64,000 bases of DNA. Source: Cytophagaceae bacterium (GTDB lineage Bacteria > Bacteroidota > Bacteroidia > Cytophagales > Spirosomataceae). The first letter of the stretch is position 1; each line of letters opens with the position of its first letter. A program made the position numbers and the translations under genes. Below are positions 10,317 through 55,263 of the stretch, in pieces. The stretch is from positions 124,001 through 188,000 of the forward strand of contig JAIXWQ010000009.1 of NCBI GenBank assembly GCA_027491195.1. The letters are read 5' to 3'. The notes under the pieces were generated by a model. The model ran no database searches. It was not told the DNA's origin and saw nothing but the letters and a program-made list of their open reading frames with translations.

Positions 10317-11128
10317 GCTACCTAAAAGAAGTTAAAAGAGTCACGACCACCAGCTTGCAAACCATGAAGGGCGCTGGGGAGAAAATCGCCATGTTAACCT
10401 GCTACGATTACACGATGGCCGGACTTTTAGATGCGGCCGGAGTCGATGTTTTATTAGTAGGAGACAGCGCTAGTAATGTGATGGCGGGTTATGAAACGAC
10501 TTTGCCCATCACCTTAGATCACATGATCTACCATGCCCAATGCGTTAGTAGAGGAGCAAAAAGAGCGATGGTTTTAGTAGACATGCCTTTTGGGTCTTAT
10601 CAATCGGACAGCTCCATTGCTTTAGCCTCCGCAGTGAAAATCATGAAGGAAACCGGAGCCCATGCCGTGAAATTAGAGGGGGGCGAAGAGGTCGTAGAAT
10701 CGATCTTAAAAATTACGAAAGCCGGCATTCCGGTCATGGGACACTTGGGCTTAACTCCCCAAAGTATCCACCAATTCGGTTCTTATGGTATCCAAGGAAA
10801 AGGCGAAGAAGCGGCAAATAAATTAATTAAAGAGGCCGTTATGTTGCAAGAAGCGGGCTGTTTTGGGCTAGTTTTAGAGAAAATTCCAGCTGTATTAGCC
10901 GCGCAAGTTACTCATGCTTTGCAGATTCCGACGATCGGCATAGGTGCCGGAGTGGGTTGCGATGGGCAAGTATTAGTAATGCAAGATATGCTGGGAATGA
11001 ATGACGGATTTGCCCCTAAGTTTTTGCGCAAATATGCTTCATTAGGCGAGGACATTACCCGTGCTACCACTGCCTATGTGCAGGATGTGAAGCACGCGCA
11101 ATTCCCTTCGCCGGAAGAATCGTATTAA
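10313..11128 (+). CDS. panB: 3-methyl-2-oxobutanoate hydroxymethyltransferase
   Basis: 271 residues, normal for PanB. Recognisable motifs are [27 protein letters not shown] (metal-binding Asp), VKLEGGEE and [15 protein letters not shown]. It uses methylene-tetrahydrofolate to form ketopantoate, the first committed step to pantoate. It is the second gene of the panCB operon. The next enzyme, ketopantoate reductase, is not encoded in the window. Its 3' end overlaps that of panD on the other strand by 4 bp. Confidence 0.97.
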
Positions 11129-47622: not shown

Positions 47623-49020
47623 TTATTTCTTGTCAGCGGCCTTTTCTGCTGCTTTCGGATCCTTTTTCTTTACTAAGTCTCCTTCTTTCAACTTCTTAGC
47701 TACTGTCGCGTATGGACCAGAGATGATCTCTTGACCGTCTTTCAAGCCAGATACGATTTCGATGTTTTCGAAATCTGAGATGCCTGTTTTCACTTGGATC
47801 ATCTTCGCTTTGCCTTTTTCCATTACGAAAACGACTTCTTTGGTATTTTCTTTGCGTTTTTTGGCCTCCAAAGCATCATTCGCATTCGTCGAATTCGTTC
47901 CATCCTCTTCTTTCTTCTCACCCTCTGCTACTGCACCTATTTCACGCGTTGTCACAGACGATAATGGAACCGTTAAGGTATTGTCTTTTCTGTTTGTCAA
48001 AATCTCCACAGACGCCGTCATTCCAGGCTTTAATGGATACGATAATTTACCCTTGATTAAGTCTGCATAAGAAGAACGCAAAACGCGAATCTTTACTTCA
48101 AATTCTGTCACCGCATCATTTGAAACAGCAGAAGCCGTTCCGCTTGAATTCGCTGAACTCGCGATCTCATAAACAACTCCTTTAAACTTACGCTCGCTAG
48201 AAGAGAAGGCGTCCACATCAATTAACACGGTATCACCGATGCTCACGCGTGTGATGTCATTTTCATTTACGTTCACGCGCACTTCCATTTTATTCAAGTT
48301 CGCGATACGCAACATTTCAGTACCCGCCATCTGCGAAGTACCTACGACACGCTCACCTAATTCAACGTTCAACTTCGAGATGATACCGCTTTGAGGAGCA
48401 TAAATTGTCGTCTTCGTTAAGTTTGTTTTCGCTTCTTTCAAAGTCGCCTGAGACGATTTCACGTTATAGTTAGCTGCATTCACGTTTGCTTTTGCCGCTT
48501 CTAAATCTTGTTTAGCTACCGTGTATGCCGATACAAATTGGTCAAAATCCGCATCAGAAATCACCTTATCCTTGTGCAATTTCGCATTACGATCGTAGTC
48601 GATTTTCGCTTTAGAAAGACGTGCTTCGCTTTGGGCTAACACCGCCTTGCTTTGCTCCATGTTTGCTTTCGTCGCATTCATTTGCGCTTCCGCTCGTGCT
48701 AAAAGAGACACGTAATTATCTGGACGAATCTTCAATAATTCCTGTCCAGCTACTACTGAATCACCTTCCGCCACGTTCAAGGAAACAATTTCCCCAGAAA
48801 CATCCGGTGATAATTTCACCTCTACCTCAGGTTGAATCTTTCCAGACGCCGAAACCTTTTCAATGATCGTCGAACGAGATGCCTTCGCGAATTCTACTTC
48901 CGTAGGCTCGACCTTACCGATCCACTCCATTTTTTTGGCTAGAAATAATCCACCAAAAATTAATACCACCGCGCCTCCGATGATCATCCAAGTCCGCTTA
49001 CTGTTGTTGTTTGTTGCCAT
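47623..49020 (-). CDS. efflux periplasmic adaptor subunit (MacA/HlyD family)
   Basis: 465 residues. N-terminal membrane anchor (WMIIGGAVVLIFGGLFLA), lipoyl-like half motifs around GKIQPEVEVKLSPDVSGEIV, a long coiled coil with Ala/Lys-rich repeats (residues ~110-200), then the second lipoyl half (APQSGIISKLNVELGERV) and beta-barrel. The C-terminus is very Lys-rich (KKKDPKAAEKAADKK). It joins an inner-membrane transporter to the TolC channel encoded upstream. The transporter itself is not in the window. Confidence 0.9.
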   Translation of the reverse strand: MATNNNSKRTWMIIGGAVVLIFGGLFLAKKMEWIGKVEPTEVEFAKASRSTIIEKVSASGKIQPEVEVKLSPDVSGEIVSLNVAEGDSVVAGQELLKIRPDNYVSLLARAEAQMNATKANMEQSKAVLAQSEARLSKAKIDYDRNAKLHKDKVISDADFDQFVSAYTVAKQDLEAAKANVNAANYNVKSSQATLKEAKTNLTKTTIYAPQSGIISKLNVELGERVVGTSQMAGTEMLRIANLNKMEVRVNVNENDITRVSIGDTVLIDVDAFSSSERKFKGVVYEIASSANSSGTASAVSNDAVTEFEVKIRVLRSSYADLIKGKLSYPLKPGMTASVEILTNRKDNTLTVPLSSVTTREIGAVAEGEKKEEDGTNSTNANDALEAKKRKENTKEVVFVMEKGKAKMIQVKTGISDFENIEIVSGLKDGQEIISGPYATVAKKLKEGDLVKKKDPKAAEKAADKK

Positions 49021-49027
49021 AATTATA

Positions 49028-49347
49028 GTCGCGGCTTCGCCGCTCGTTAGTCGTCACTCCGTGACTTAGTCGCGACTGCGTCGCTTAGTCGTCCTTCGGA
49101 CTTAGTCATTGCTACGCAATCTAGTCGACTTCGTCTTAGTCTCTGTGACTTTATTTATTGTTTAAAATTCATTCTTTTTGTCGCGGCTTCGCCGCTTAGT
49201 CGTCCTGCGGACTTAGTCGTTGCTTCGCAACTTAGTCGACTTCGTCTTAGTCAAAGAGTCGGTCCGCTGACTAAGTCCGCAGGACGACTAAACCTCGTAG
49301 AGGTGACTAGGCCGCAACGCGGCGACTCTGGTTTTTCAATTGCTCCG
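49028..49347. repeat. array of mini-hairpins joined by TTAGTC linkers
   Basis: About fourteen short palindromes (3-5 bp stems, mostly 3-nt loops such as ttc, tcc, tgc) separated by TTAGTC: for example GCGGC-ttc-GCCGC, GTCAC-tcc-GTGAC, GTCC-ttc-GGAC, GTTGC-ttc-GCAAC. Two blocks (49028-49150, 49192-49252) run in one direction and a third (49268-49326) in the other; 49269-49291 is the reverse complement of 49197-49219. It fills the gap between tolC and the adaptor gene. Confidence 0.9.
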
Positions 49348-49350
49348 CAA

Positions 49351-50703
49351 TTAAAAAACCAGCGCTTTCCCCTGATAAAAATCCAAAATCTTCGTTCTAA
49401 ACACGAAGTCATATTTCGATTGAATCAAGCTCAAGCGCGCTTTATCTAAATTCGTTTTTTGTAAGTTATAACTCACGAAGTCGATGGTTCCAGCACCGAA
49501 ACGGCTCTCTGCCGCGCGGAAGGATTCTTCTAAAGCGGATACCTGTGAAAGGCCTGCCTCGTATTTCATCGCTGCATTATTTAAGTTCACGTAAGCTTGC
49601 TCGATGTTTTGGCGCAAGTTTTGGCGTGCTTTTGCTGCTTCAATGGAAGCGTTCTCGCGCTGTAAACCTGCTTGAGCAATTCTTGTTTTAGCTGCAAATC
49701 GCGTAAAAATAGGGATGTTTAATCCTACTGAAAGCACTTTGTTTTGCGTGTTATTCAACTGATCGAAATAGCTCATCGTTAACGCATTCGACTGGTTAGC
49801 CGACATGCTCGCGCTAAATGATAGGGTAGGTAGTGTCCCTGCTTTCGCAACCGAAATGCCTTTTAATGCACTCTGAACGCGCAAGTCAGCCGCTTTAACG
49901 AGGGGTTGAATGGCTAGGGCTTTGGCATATAAATCCTCAATTCCTGTATCATAGCCACTCGAACTGGGCGCAGGAACTTGAATGCGCTGTAATTCGATCG
50001 CCGTGATGCTCGAATCATTCAATAATTGAAGTAAAGTCAGTTTATTTAGGTCCAAAGAGCTCTGGAAATTCACCACATTCGACTCTTCACTCGCTAATTG
50101 CGCCTTCAAATCCAATAGGTTGGATGGGGCTAGGGAGCCCGCATTGACTAATTTTTCGGTGCGGGTAATCTGTAATTTTGTGATCTCTGTTTGCGTCTTT
50201 GCGATGCTTAATTGATCCTCTGAATTCAGAATGGCTAAATAGGAAAGCACGACTTGAAGCGAAATATTTTCCTTGATGGACGCTAAATCTTCTTGCGATG
50301 CCTTTAAGTTATAATCGTTCTGGAGAACCGTGTTACGGATTTGGCCCCCATTAAAAAGAAGCATTCCAGCGTTTAAACCTAAGTTATTGTAATTGATATT
50401 TCGCGAATCGTAACCGTTCGTGAAGGGGTTAATACTACGGCCAAAACTCGCCGACTGATTAATATTCGCACTTAAATTAGGCAGCGCGTTGTTCTTAGAC
50501 TGCTGAAATTGCAATTGTGCATTGCGCAAACTCACCTCGTACGACTTCACGTTTAGGTTATGTTGCAACGCGATTTCCACCGCCTTTGTAAGCGATAGCT
50601 GCACCGTATTTGCGTTTGCCTGAATCGCCGAAGCGCTCTGAGCATTCACCTGCATTCCGCTAACGAAAAGTAGGGAGGTAAGACTAACTATTTTTAAGTA
50701 CAT
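49351..50703 (-). CDS. TolC family outer membrane efflux protein
   Basis: 450 residues from the ATG at 50703 (MYLKIVSLTSLLFVSGMQVNAQ, signal). Two repeats of the OEP family with long helical hairpins: LTKAVEIALQHNLNVKSYEV and, in the second half, AKARQNLRQNIEQAYVNL and FGAGTIDFVSYNLQKTNL. Forms the trimeric outer-membrane channel for the adaptor downstream. Both genes are on the minus strand in the order tolC, hairpin array, adaptor. Confidence 0.9.
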   Translation of the reverse strand: MYLKIVSLTSLLFVSGMQVNAQSASAIQANANTVQLSLTKAVEIALQHNLNVKSYEVSLRNAQLQFQQSKNNALPNLSANINQSASFGRSINPFTNGYDSRNINYNNLGLNAGMLLFNGGQIRNTVLQNDYNLKASQEDLASIKENISLQVVLSYLAILNSEDQLSIAKTQTEITKLQITRTEKLVNAGSLAPSNLLDLKAQLASEESNVVNFQSSLDLNKLTLLQLLNDSSITAIELQRIQVPAPSSSGYDTGIEDLYAKALAIQPLVKAADLRVQSALKGISVAKAGTLPTLSFSASMSANQSNALTMSYFDQLNNTQNKVLSVGLNIPIFTRFAAKTRIAQAGLQRENASIEAAKARQNLRQNIEQAYVNLNNAAMKYEAGLSQVSALEESFRAAESRFGAGTIDFVSYNLQKTNLDKARLSLIQSKYDFVFRTKILDFYQGKALVF

Positions 50704-50801
50704 AGGTCGACAATAAAATAATGTATGCAAAGGTAAACATTCCCCGGAAAGCCCCTCCTGATTTTAGGATAAACGGCAAGGGTTCAGGATAAAATCGCCG
50801 T

Positions 50802-52770: not shown

Positions 52771-52777
52771 ACCCAAA

Positions 52778-52950
52778 TTAAAGCATAGAGCATAAAGAAT
52801 AGAGAATAGAGGTGGAATAACCTTTGGTTATACGTATTTGAAATGTCTTTTGTCGCTGAAACCATCAAAATGGGCGAAGCCCTATTTTGATACAAACTTT
52901 ATTCTTTATGCTTTATTCTTTGTGCTTTAAAACGATTCTTTATGCTTTAA
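52778..52950. repeat. left structured repeat flanking the four-helix-bundle gene
   Basis: About 170 bp starting with TTAAAGCATAGAGCATAAAG and ending with the inverted CTTTATGCTTT/TTCTTTGTGCTTTAA motifs. Internal hairpins: ATAACC-TTT-GGTTAT and GGGC-GAA-GCCC. Closely similar to the repeat at 53358 (shared core CTGAAACCATCAAAA). Confidence 0.85.
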
Positions 52951-53014: not shown

Positions 53015-53368
53015 ATGATGACAGAAAATCCAGCCCTTACTAAGTCTTTTGAATTCTCCTTAAAAATGGTCGCGCTATGTCGTAAACTGATTTATGAGAA
53101 CAAAGAATTCGTATTAGGAAAACAATTGTTACGATGTTCAACCTCCATTGGTGCTAATTTAGAAGAAGCCATGGGAGGTTTTTCGCGCAATGATTTCAAA
53201 TACAAAATCTCTCTTTCTTATAAAGAAGCGCGGGAAACACATTACTGGATAAGACTCCTAATGCGCTCGCAAATAATCAATGAAGCAGACGGAAATGCCG
53301 GCTTAAAAGATCTAGAAGAGTTGTTGAAAATACTGACGGCGACGTTGAAAACTCTTAATAAAGCATAA
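53015..53368 (+). CDS. four helix bundle protein (23S rRNA intervening-sequence / bAvd-like)
   Basis: 117 residues. FEFSLKMVALCRKLI, LLRCSTSIGANLEEAMGG and YKISLSYKEARETHYWIRLL are signature helices of the S23/IVP family (TIGR02436-type), related to the Avd protein of diversity-generating retroelements. No reverse transcriptase or template repeat is near. The stop codon itself falls inside the right flanking repeat, which suggests gene and repeats moved as a unit. Confidence 0.9.
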   Translation: MMTENPALTKSFEFSLKMVALCRKLIYENKEFVLGKQLLRCSTSIGANLEEAMGGFSRNDFKYKISLSYKEARETHYWIRLLMRSQIINEADGNAGLKDLEELLKILTATLKTLNKA

Positions 53369-53529
53369 AGAATAGAGCACAAAGAATAAAGTAGGCATAC
53401 CCTTTGGGTATACGTTTTTGAAATGTTTTTTACCTCTGAAACCATCAAAATTGGCTTTGCCAATTTTGAACCATCTTTATTCTTTATTCTTTGTGCTTTA
53501 TGCTTTAAATCTGTGCTTTATTCTTTAAA
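53358..53529. repeat. right structured repeat flanking the four-helix-bundle gene
   Basis: Second copy, same orientation: TAAAGCATAAAGAATAGAGC at the start, hairpins ATACCC-TTT-GGGTAT and AAAATTGGC-TTT-GCCAATTTT, ending TTATGCTTTAAA and TTCTTTAAAA. Stems are kept although bases differ from the left copy. Confidence 0.85.
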
Positions 53530-53530
53530 A

Positions 53531-54007
53531 CTATTTATCTGCTAATGCAGCCACCAACTCAAACCCTAAACTCTCAATCTTCAACCTCACCTCGTGCTTA
53601 TTCTTCAGCCCGACGATCTTCGCGGTTTGGCCAGTTAGTGGGCCGGATTCGATGGTGATGTAGTCACCGATTTTTGCGGTGGTGCCGATGGTTTCGACTT
53701 CGAGGTGGTCAGATAAGAATTGTTTGATGGCGTGGATTTCGTCGTCTTGGATGACCGCGGGTTTGTGGAGCCAATAGACAAAGTTAACGACACCGAAGGT
53801 GCGGCGGACGAGGCCGCTTTGCTTTTCAAGGTCGATGTTAACGAAGACGTAGGAGCGGAAGAGGACTTCTTCGACCCATTTCTTGCGGTCAGACCATTGC
53901 TTCTTGCGCTTCGTAGTAGGGCAGTAGGCTTCGATGCCTAGCTCCTGAAGGCGCAAGGAGACTTTCTTCTCCATTCTGGATTTCGTGTAAATCGCGTACC
54001 AAGCCAT
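53531..54007 (-). CDS. UpxY-type NusG-like transcription antiterminator
   Basis: 158 residues. NGN domain from MAWYAIYTKSRMEKKV through RSYVFVNID, then a KOW-like segment (IGDYITIESGPLTGQTAKIV). UpxY proteins let polymerase read through long capsule/exopolysaccharide operons and are usually the first gene of the operon. Here it is the last, directly after a nucleotide-sugar dehydrogenase (2 bp). Confidence 0.88.
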   Translation of the reverse strand: MAWYAIYTKSRMEKKVSLRLQELGIEAYCPTTKRKKQWSDRKKWVEEVLFRSYVFVNIDLEKQSGLVRRTFGVVNFVYWLHKPAVIQDDEIHAIKQFLSDHLEVETIGTTAKIGDYITIESGPLTGQTAKIVGLKNKHEVRLKIESLGFELVAALADK

Positions 54008-54009
54008 GC

Positions 54010-55263
54010 TTATAATCGGGCGTCAGCCAAGTCTTTAGATAAGATGGATTTGATGTCGAAGATGACCCCGTTTTCGGCACGTAAGGAGGCGAAGGGGAGG
54101 TCTAAGAATTCGTTGTGGGCTACGGTCAAAACAATCGCCTGGTATTGATCTGCTAGTTTTGTGACTAGGTCGATGCCGTGTTCGTGTTTCACTTCGGCGG
54201 CGTTTGCCCAAGGGTCGTAGACGTCTACGTCCATGCCAAAGTCCACGAGTTCTTTGTAGATGTCGACGACACGGGAGTTACGGATGTCGGGGCAGTTTTC
54301 TTTGAAGGTGATGCCGAGCATGAGGGTTTTGGCGCCGCCTATTTTTTGGCCTTTATTAATCAAGAGTTTGACTAATTTATTCGCTACGAAAATGCCCATG
54401 TTATCGTTCACGCGGCGTCCCGAAAGAATCACCTGTGGGTAATAGCCTAAGCTTTCAGACTTGTGCAATAAGTAATAGGGGTCCACGCCGATGCAGTGGC
54501 CGCCCACTAAACCGGGTTTGAAATTTAAGAAATTCCACTTCGTTCCGGCAGCTTCTAAGACTTCCGTCGTGTCGATGCCCATGCGATCGAAGATCAAGGC
54601 AAGCTCGTTTACGAAGGAAATATTGACGTCGCGTTGGGCGTTTTCGATGGCTTTGCTGGCTTCCGCCACTTTCATCGAAGGCGCTTTGTGCGTGCCGGCG
54701 GTGATGATGGAGCGGTATAATTGGTCGACTTTTTCGGCGATTTCGGGTGTGGAGCCGGAGGTAACTTTCTTAATTTTGGTCAAGGTGTTTACCTTGTCGC
54801 CTGGATTAATGCGTTCTGGCGAATAGCCACAGAAGAAGTCTTCGTTGAATTTTAGTCCAGAGAATTTCTCCAAAACAGGAACACAATCCTCCTCTGTACA
54901 ACCTGGATAAACCGTCGATTCGTAAATGACTAAATCACCTTTTTTTAGCGCTTTTCCGATCATTTCCGACGCCTTCAAAAGCGGGCTTAAGTCCGGCTTT
55001 TTGAAGTGATCAATGGGGGTGGGGACTGTAACAATAAAAGTGTTGCAGGCCGCTAAATCGGCTGCATTCGATGAAAAACTTAAAGAAACCGACGCTTTTA
55101 ATTGCTCCGGCTTTACTTCCTGCGTGCGATCAAAACCGGTGTTTAATTCCGCAATGCGACTGGTGTCGATATCGAAACCGAGCGTAGGAATTTTCTTGCC
55201 AAACTCCACCGCCAGCGGAAAACCCACATATCCTAAGCCAATAATGGCGATCCGTGTACTCAT
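54010..55263 (-). CDS. nucleotide sugar dehydrogenase (TviB/WbpO-like)
   Basis: 417 residues. NAD-binding GLGYVGFPLAVEFGK at the start, VPTPIDHFKKPDLSP, catalytic GGHCIGVDPYYL (Cys). The pattern is that of UDP-N-acetyl-hexosamine 6-dehydrogenases (Vi antigen TviB, WbpO), which make uronic acids for surface polysaccharide. Lies 1 bp after gmd and 2 bp before UpxY. Confidence 0.9.
   Translation of the reverse strand: MSTRIAIIGLGYVGFPLAVEFGKKIPTLGFDIDTSRIAELNTGFDRTQEVKPEQLKASVSLSFSSNAADLAACNTFIVTVPTPIDHFKKPDLSPLLKASEMIGKALKKGDLVIYESTVYPGCTEEDCVPVLEKFSGLKFNEDFFCGYSPERINPGDKVNTLTKIKKVTSGSTPEIAEKVDQLYRSIITAGTHKAPSMKVAEASKAIENAQRDVNISFVNELALIFDRMGIDTTEVLEAAGTKWNFLNFKPGLVGGHCIGVDPYYLLHKSESLGYYPQVILSGRRVNDNMGIFVANKLVKLLINKGQKIGGAKTLMLGITFKENCPDIRNSRVVDIYKELVDFGMDVDVYDPWANAAEVKHEHGIDLVTKLADQYQAIVLTVAHNEFLDLPFASLRAENGVIFDIKSILSKDLADARL

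Follow-up and report, generated by a model that had tools for sequence, protein, structure and literature searches.

Among the described systems closest to the locus reported here, the 23S rRNA IVS of Coxiella carries tandem GACAGAT heptamers just before its S23p ORF, their number being two or three depending on the strain (PMC4990558). Heptamer repeats of the STRR/LSSR type include the TAACTGA repeats of Beggiatoaceae, cyanobacteria and Bacteroidetes, and the idea of polymerase slippage at 7 nt is cited for repeats of this length in general (PMC4679880). Finally, CGTC REPs possess a stem of 8–9 bp, a loop of 4–5 nt and a CGTC tag, and have no known transposase (PMC3733652).

The window, that is, the whole 64 kb stretch of DNA that was analysed, belongs to the genome designated G000 (2.49 Mb in 14 contigs). 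Outside it, sequence was sampled as stretches around arrays and as chosen orthologous sites (loci labelled L). The features of the window are the following:

47623–49020, minus strand: HlyD family efflux adaptor gene, downstream of the array
49028–49141, plus strand: first direct block of the array, 6 TTAGTC-linked mini-hairpins with stems GCGGC, GTCAC, GCGAC, GTCC, ATTGC and GAC and loops TNC
49142–49180, no strand: AT-rich core, AATTATAAACAATAAATAAAGTCAC being the form kept in sister species
49181–49252, plus strand: second direct block, 4 mini-hairpins with stems GCGGC, GTCC, GTTGC and GAC
49269–49327, minus strand: inverted block, 3 mini-hairpins with stems GTCC, ACCTC and GCCGC, mirror arm of both direct blocks
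49328–49362, no strand: 16-bp palindrome that takes in the final tolC codons and the stop codon; its two arms differ among sister species by paired changes
49351–50730, minus strand: tolC-like gene encoding an outer membrane efflux protein, located upstream of the array
52775–52931, no strand: to the left of the IVP gene, mirrored heptamer arms (AAAGCAT..., ...CTTTATTCTTTATG) that enclose a REP-like core and no gene
53015–53368, plus strand: IVP (four-helix bundle) gene, PF05635 and TIGR02436, bracketed by heptamer arms
53357–53529, no strand: to the right of the IVP gene, another two mirrored heptamer arms (AATAAAG..., ...CTTTATT)

Read on the plus strand, the array repeats TTAGTC, a stem, TNC and the complementary stem, in this order. 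An earlier, sequence-only reading of this DNA had described about fourteen TTAGTC-linked mini-hairpins arranged in two direct blocks and one inverted block, and both statements were confirmed, 13 hairpins with 3-nt loops being counted between 49031 and 49323 and the palindrome at the tolC end making the fourteenth. It had also noticed an exact 23-bp inverted match, which does exist, the first copy lying at 49196–49218, one base off the 49197–49219 then given, and the second at 49269–49291. Exact TTAGTC or GACTAA occurs 11 times in about 250 bp, where both strands of all 64 kb together would be expected to have about 25. In addition, stems of at least 4 bp with a 3-nt loop number 11 in the array versus 1.07 in shuffled sequences (maximum 5), and its folding gave a z of about −10 relative to shuffles on either strand. 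The inverted arms can pair into a stem through the 23-bp match, which is a trait of IVS/IVP elements, and no IVP gene lies inside 49028–49347 itself.

Only 10 bp separate the first direct block from the start codon of the adaptor gene, and the AT-rich core is a candidate for a possible adaptor promoter. In array-free species tolC and the adaptor gene are on the same strand and separated by a gap of only about 25 bp, for which reason the operon that had been thought likely is plausible. The palindrome at the tolC end is not a standard terminator, because no U-run follows its stem; another palindrome stands at this place in G001 and G004. The tolC-adaptor gap of a further genome, G022 (L184), holds a GTAG-tagged REP pair, GTAGAGACGCGATACTTCGCGTCT and its inverse.

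The repeat unit was characterised in 227 segments anchored by exact linkers only. Stems are of 3–5 bp and loops of 3 nt, and the units have a period of 15, 17 or 19 nt. The stems had been said to vary freely, but only 33 types were found and the 11 commonest account for 198 units (87%), so the repertoire of stems is small. They had also been said always to pair, which is true of the 210 perfectly self-complementary units and not of the others, 15 having one mismatch and 2 having two. The closing pair is C-G in 222 of the 227 units, and the loops are mostly TTC, TGC, TAC and TTT, which are GAA, GCA, GTA and AAA on the opposite strand. DNA mini-hairpins of exceptional stability, d(GCGAAGC) among them, have C-GNA-G as their loop, and folding with DNA parameters favoured the GNA strand only slightly. 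That pairing is kept rather than sequence was borne out by the 49 distinct 5-bp units, in which 96.3% of cells pair versus 69.1% after shuffling and the covariation score is 0.859 versus 0.310, slid controls giving at most 0.2. The arrays are an unusual case of a repeat unit whose definition lies not in its sequence but in its self-complementarity, its loop and its linker. Single mismatches were G-U in the RNA of one strand as often as in that of the other (6 and 6, small numbers), and strand-specific RNA selection was discarded on account of this equality of G-U and A-C mismatches. Together with an array polarity that is independent of the strand of the flanking genes, this symmetry favours, within such small numbers, a DNA-level or mutational cause of the pairing.

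The interpretation of the sequence-only reading was partly supported as a whole, and three points were absent from it: the array has many counterparts, its blocks form a mirror pair of arms, and it is akin to the heptamer arms that bracket IVP genes. Regarding the first point, the search for TTAGTC plus a palindrome in the genome and its relatives that had been advised gave 88 TTAGTC pairs at hairpin spacing in G000, against 8 for a reversed-pattern control, dispersed over about 22–27 loci. Array-rich species are 8 of the 25 of the genus (G000, G002, G007, G008, G014, G019, G021 and G023), the remaining ones being at background, and the seven loaded genomes among the 24 other same-genus genomes hold 36 to 105 pairs each. 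By adaptor identity, the seven loaded genomes with a strong match (G000 and six others) form one group at 96–100%, being 96–98% identical to each other's reference, while unloaded species with a strong match are at 82–85%; G014, also loaded, gave no strong adaptor match. A single clade is thus where the hairpin form either arose or was retained. The scan of genome contigs for the TTAGTC pattern gave many cyanobacterial matches, all of them heptamers, and a wide taxonomic spread of the hairpins was consequently discarded among the matches listed, in which truly paired units were limited to two Cytophagaceae MAGs (L041 and L053). Carriage by phages was likewise discarded, paired units being found in none of 189 viral segments among the matches listed.

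Adjacent arms within 450 bp of each other have a mirror polarity, TTAGTC being followed by GACTAA in 15 cases, the reverse in none, and both arms having the same direction in one. In most loci the arms start within tens of bases of the neighbouring genes, whichever the direction of transcription, and this closeness to genes of either strand, together with the polarity, corresponds to an intergenic insert whose ends are inverted. The number and identity of the units turn over fast, and the arrays adjoin unrelated genes. Hairpin and heptamer (NNTAGTC) arrays are fused in register in L173, L170 and L171; in the first of these, a CACTAGTC ACTAGTC run is followed without a break by hairpin units that share its TAGTC core and its direction, and both kinds are mixed in L170, L171 and L166. 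Other mirrored heptamer families of the intergenic regions of G000 are AAAGCAT, AGAGTAT, GGTAAAT and CAGTGGG. At locus B (L165, 7010–7390), within whose arms multi-unit blocks are duplicated, G000 and G007 have hairpin arms and G019 has, at the same place, GGTAAAT on the left and its mirror on the right. At locus C, the arms are AAAGCAC in G000 and G019 and CAGTAGT in G007. In both loci the two arms switch family jointly between species, and we know of no element that supplies a mechanism for the joint exchange of two distant arms at a fixed site.

Two cores recur beside such arms. A REP-like one, formed by a variable hairpin, TATTTGAAATGT and another variable hairpin, is found genome-wide between mirrored heptamer arms (positions 52811–52896 and 53392–53473 of the window; L164, 3800–3880; L173–L175). 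The other, TTTTCAGGTATTGACAGAATGTGTCAATA with the inverted repeat TATTGACA...TGTCAATA, adjoins hairpin arms (L159, L161, L162, and L165 at about 10360–10400) and may be a protein binding site.

Regarding IVP, the gene of the window sits among mirrored AAAGCAT arms and is one of the 4 of G000. No catalytic domain is known in this protein to our knowledge, and its solved relatives (2gsc and 2rld) have five chains each. Further along the window, a NusG-domain gene (53531–54007) adjoins a UDP-sugar dehydrogenase-like gene (54010–55263) and possibly encodes a specialised antiterminator of a polysaccharide locus. At locus A (G000:C3:397018), an IVP gene lies between 6 TTAGTC hairpins and 7 GACTAA hairpins, and G007, G008, G019 and G021 have the same arrangement at this site (L256, L257, L259, L514 and L515). 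This is the one locus enclosing an IVP gene among about 22 hairpin loci sampled from G000, and gene-less hairpin arrays are for that reason tied to IVP through the likeness of their arms and through common sites. All eight array-rich genomes contain IVP, with inverted arms at 20 of 20 testable loci, the other 4 of the 24 being too near contig ends to be scored. At the engB-hemE site, which is occupied by an IVP gene in a large number of species, one species may have another arm family than the next, but the two arms match each other. In more distant species of the genus (L241, L242, L245 and L247), the arrays at this gene are built on AGTCCGAAGGGAAAG and include a CC-GNA-GG mini-hairpin.

The association extends beyond the genus. 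In other Bacteroidota, inverted flanks scoring at least 28 were found at 18 of 29 IVP loci versus 0 of 29 DHFR loci (p=7.7e-8), the latter being unmatched for intergenic length, and the period-7 signal was raised at the IVP loci (p=5.8e-7); 11 of the 29 showed no clear arms. The left and right flanks of the same IVP gene were coherent, exceeding mismatched pairs in inverted similarity with p values of 1.4e-12 (genus and order) and 4.6e-14 (phylum), which are nominal because the pairs are not independent. Y1-transposase loci had the inverted ends expected of them but no period-7 signal. In the cyanobacterial sample, composed of 10 plasmid copies, 7 IVP genes had an inverted score of at least 46 or obvious mirror heptamers (for instance AGGTGAC, GGGAACA, AAGGGAA and GGTGTAG), and several of the copies with mirrored heptamers sit inside CRISPR-cas operons (cas6/cas4 and cas10/cmr3; L470, L472 and L475). 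Near the cyanobacterial TTAGTC heptamers, phmmer detected no IVP within the 8-kb loci, hence a given heptamer array can exist without an IVP gene nearby. A literature search found no link between IVP and heptamer arrays, which is weak evidence of absence, most subscription journals being outside the search.

The IVP site of the window, measured between the two flanking stop codons, is gained or lost between species, the level at which all polymorphism was observed, here and at loci B and C. It has 760 bp in G000, with IVP and arms, and 602 and 653 bp in G002 and G008, with a related IVP and AGAGTAT arms. In G007 and G019 the site is reduced to 85–91 bp of gene-less GGTAAAT arms and in G021 to 25 bp. 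The presence of the gene and the arm family vary independently of a site that is itself fixed. No target-site duplication was seen.

Several known systems were considered as an origin. A search for the Y1 transposase (PF01797) gave no match in the eight array-rich genomes and the arrays have no GTAG tag, so an origin from REPs and RAYT was discarded. Reverse transcriptase was found in G000 and G007 and was not found in G002, G008 and G014 (80–85% complete), and a retroelement origin was rejected since no such enzyme is common to the array-rich genomes. One reverse transcriptase match (L340, G000:C4:3957–4445) lies inside an unusually long open frame of 1476 codons. A known RNA family was also ruled out, the best match of the array to the Rfam covariance models reaching 17 bits where the gathering threshold is 97. 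Since there is neither a Y1 transposase nor a common reverse transcriptase, we propose selfish IVS-like elements whose arms would be copied in replication. The array would then be the mirror repeat-arm pair of exchangeable intergenic elements of IVS/IVP type, maintained at the DNA level, a reading to which we give about an even chance. The dispersal of the arrays, their restriction to a clade, their polarity, the coherence and joint exchange of the arms, the association with IVP, the variation at a fixed site and the Coxiella heptamers speak for it. Against it stand the single IVP-enclosing locus among the hairpin loci sampled from G000, the want of a catalytic domain or of a common transposase or reverse transcriptase, the absence of target-site duplications and the IVP loci with no clear arms. 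In such an element, short units repeated in tandem would make up two arms inverted to each other; these units would be either degenerate heptamers (NNTAGTC, GGTAAAT, AGAGTAT, AAAGCAT, CAGTAGT and others) or, in one clade of the genus, mini-hairpins derived from heptamers (TTAGTC, stem, TNC, stem). Gene-bearing copies would have an IVP gene (S23, four-helix bundle) between the arms, whereas the majority of hairpin copies, that at 49028–49347 included, have none, and the elements would be tolerated outside rRNA in the gaps between genes. Hairpin-templated strand switching in replication could copy the arms into each other and keep the stems perfect, perhaps helped by the very stable C-GNA-G loops. 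The IVP protein, the solved relatives of which are assemblies of five chains, may bind the arms as DNA or RNA, and transcribed arms might pair into a stem that RNase III could cut, as in 23S rRNA IVSs.

Other explanations have to be weighed against this one. The arrays could be host or independent repeats at whose centre IVP elements insert, as arm pairs of this polarity that lack a gene far outnumber those that bear one and gene-less arms occupy the window IVP site in two species. We regard this as possible but doubtful, given that arms go with IVP across the phylum and on cyanobacterial plasmids while control genes lack them, and that G021 is nearly empty at that site. Rather unlikely, in our opinion, is a neutral by-product, in which slippage and quasi-palindrome template switching would expand and perfect intergenic repeats without any element, IVP genes merely settling there. 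Mismatches without strand preference, the block duplications within the locus B arms, the copying of the tolC end into a palindrome and the idea of 7-nt polymerase slippage cited in PMC4679880 all agree with it; it leaves unexplained why mirrored heptamers accompany IVP, and not DHFR or adaptor genes, across phyla, and how an unrelated family can take the place of both arms jointly where the site is fixed.

The sequence-only reading had seen in the array a chain of RNA hairpins, and such a chain in the tolC-adaptor transcript could tune expression, processing or attenuation, which fits the same-strand genes with close spacing in array-free relatives and the strong predicted RNA fold. As the cause of the structure it was not upheld, and a regulatory role of this kind appears improbable, because the polarity disregards the gene strand, mismatches are symmetric, unit number and identity turn over fast beside unrelated genes and no Rfam match exceeds the threshold. 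Very improbable is, finally, that these are REP/BIME-type repeats mobilised by RAYT: they resemble GTAG and CGTC REPs in being short, intergenic palindromes in inverted pairs and high copy (PMC3733652), but the Y1 transposase and the GTAG tag are missing and stems of 3–5 bp and 33 types are chained head-to-tail.

Returning to the exchangeable IVS/IVP-type element, a wider proposal is that IVP and mirrored heptamer or mini-hairpin arms constitute one unrecognised class of mobile element in Bacteroidota and Cyanobacteria, rRNA IVSs included, in which the IVP ring would read one unit per subunit, the arms would swap as a pair and structure, not sequence, would be inherited. This we put forward tentatively and consider unlikely. 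S23/IVP proteins and intergenic heptamer repeats are both widespread and of unexplained purpose, and a link between them across at least two phyla merges two puzzles into one testable system.

The DGR accessory protein Avd belongs to the same four-helix-bundle superfamily as IVP; unlike in that system, no DGR was found here and reverse transcriptase is present in only some of the array-rich genomes. As in REP, BIME and REPIN sequences, including GTAG and CGTC REPs (PMC3733652), small intergenic palindromes form inverted pairs in high copy, but here they have 3–5 bp stems of 33 types and 3-nt loops and are chained head-to-tail on a 6-nt linker, and the constant element is TTAGTC, which is neither of the tags, whereas REPs have one conserved stem. 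The likeness to heptamer STRR/LSSR repeats (PMC4679880) lies in 7-nt tandem units that are intergenic, near starts and stops, patchy by species and of unknown mechanism; mirrored arms, many families per genome, the mini-hairpin version and the IVP association, none of them mentioned in the text of that source that was searched, distinguish the arrays described here, whose hairpin units moreover repeat every 15, 17 or 19 nt, though fused in register with NNTAGTC heptamers. The 23S rRNA IVSs of Coxiella and Leptospira share with the gene-bearing ones among these elements an ORF of the S23p/IVP family within stem-capable flanks and tandem heptamers beside it in a number that varies between strains (PMC4990558), and IVSs have been described as selfish. 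Unlike them, the elements reported here lie between protein genes instead of in rRNA, have long tandem arrays of changing family as their arms and are mostly gene-less. Both kinds of sequence, heptamer repeats and IVS elements, were already known, and the part that appears to be new is the joining of IVP with heptamer arrays.
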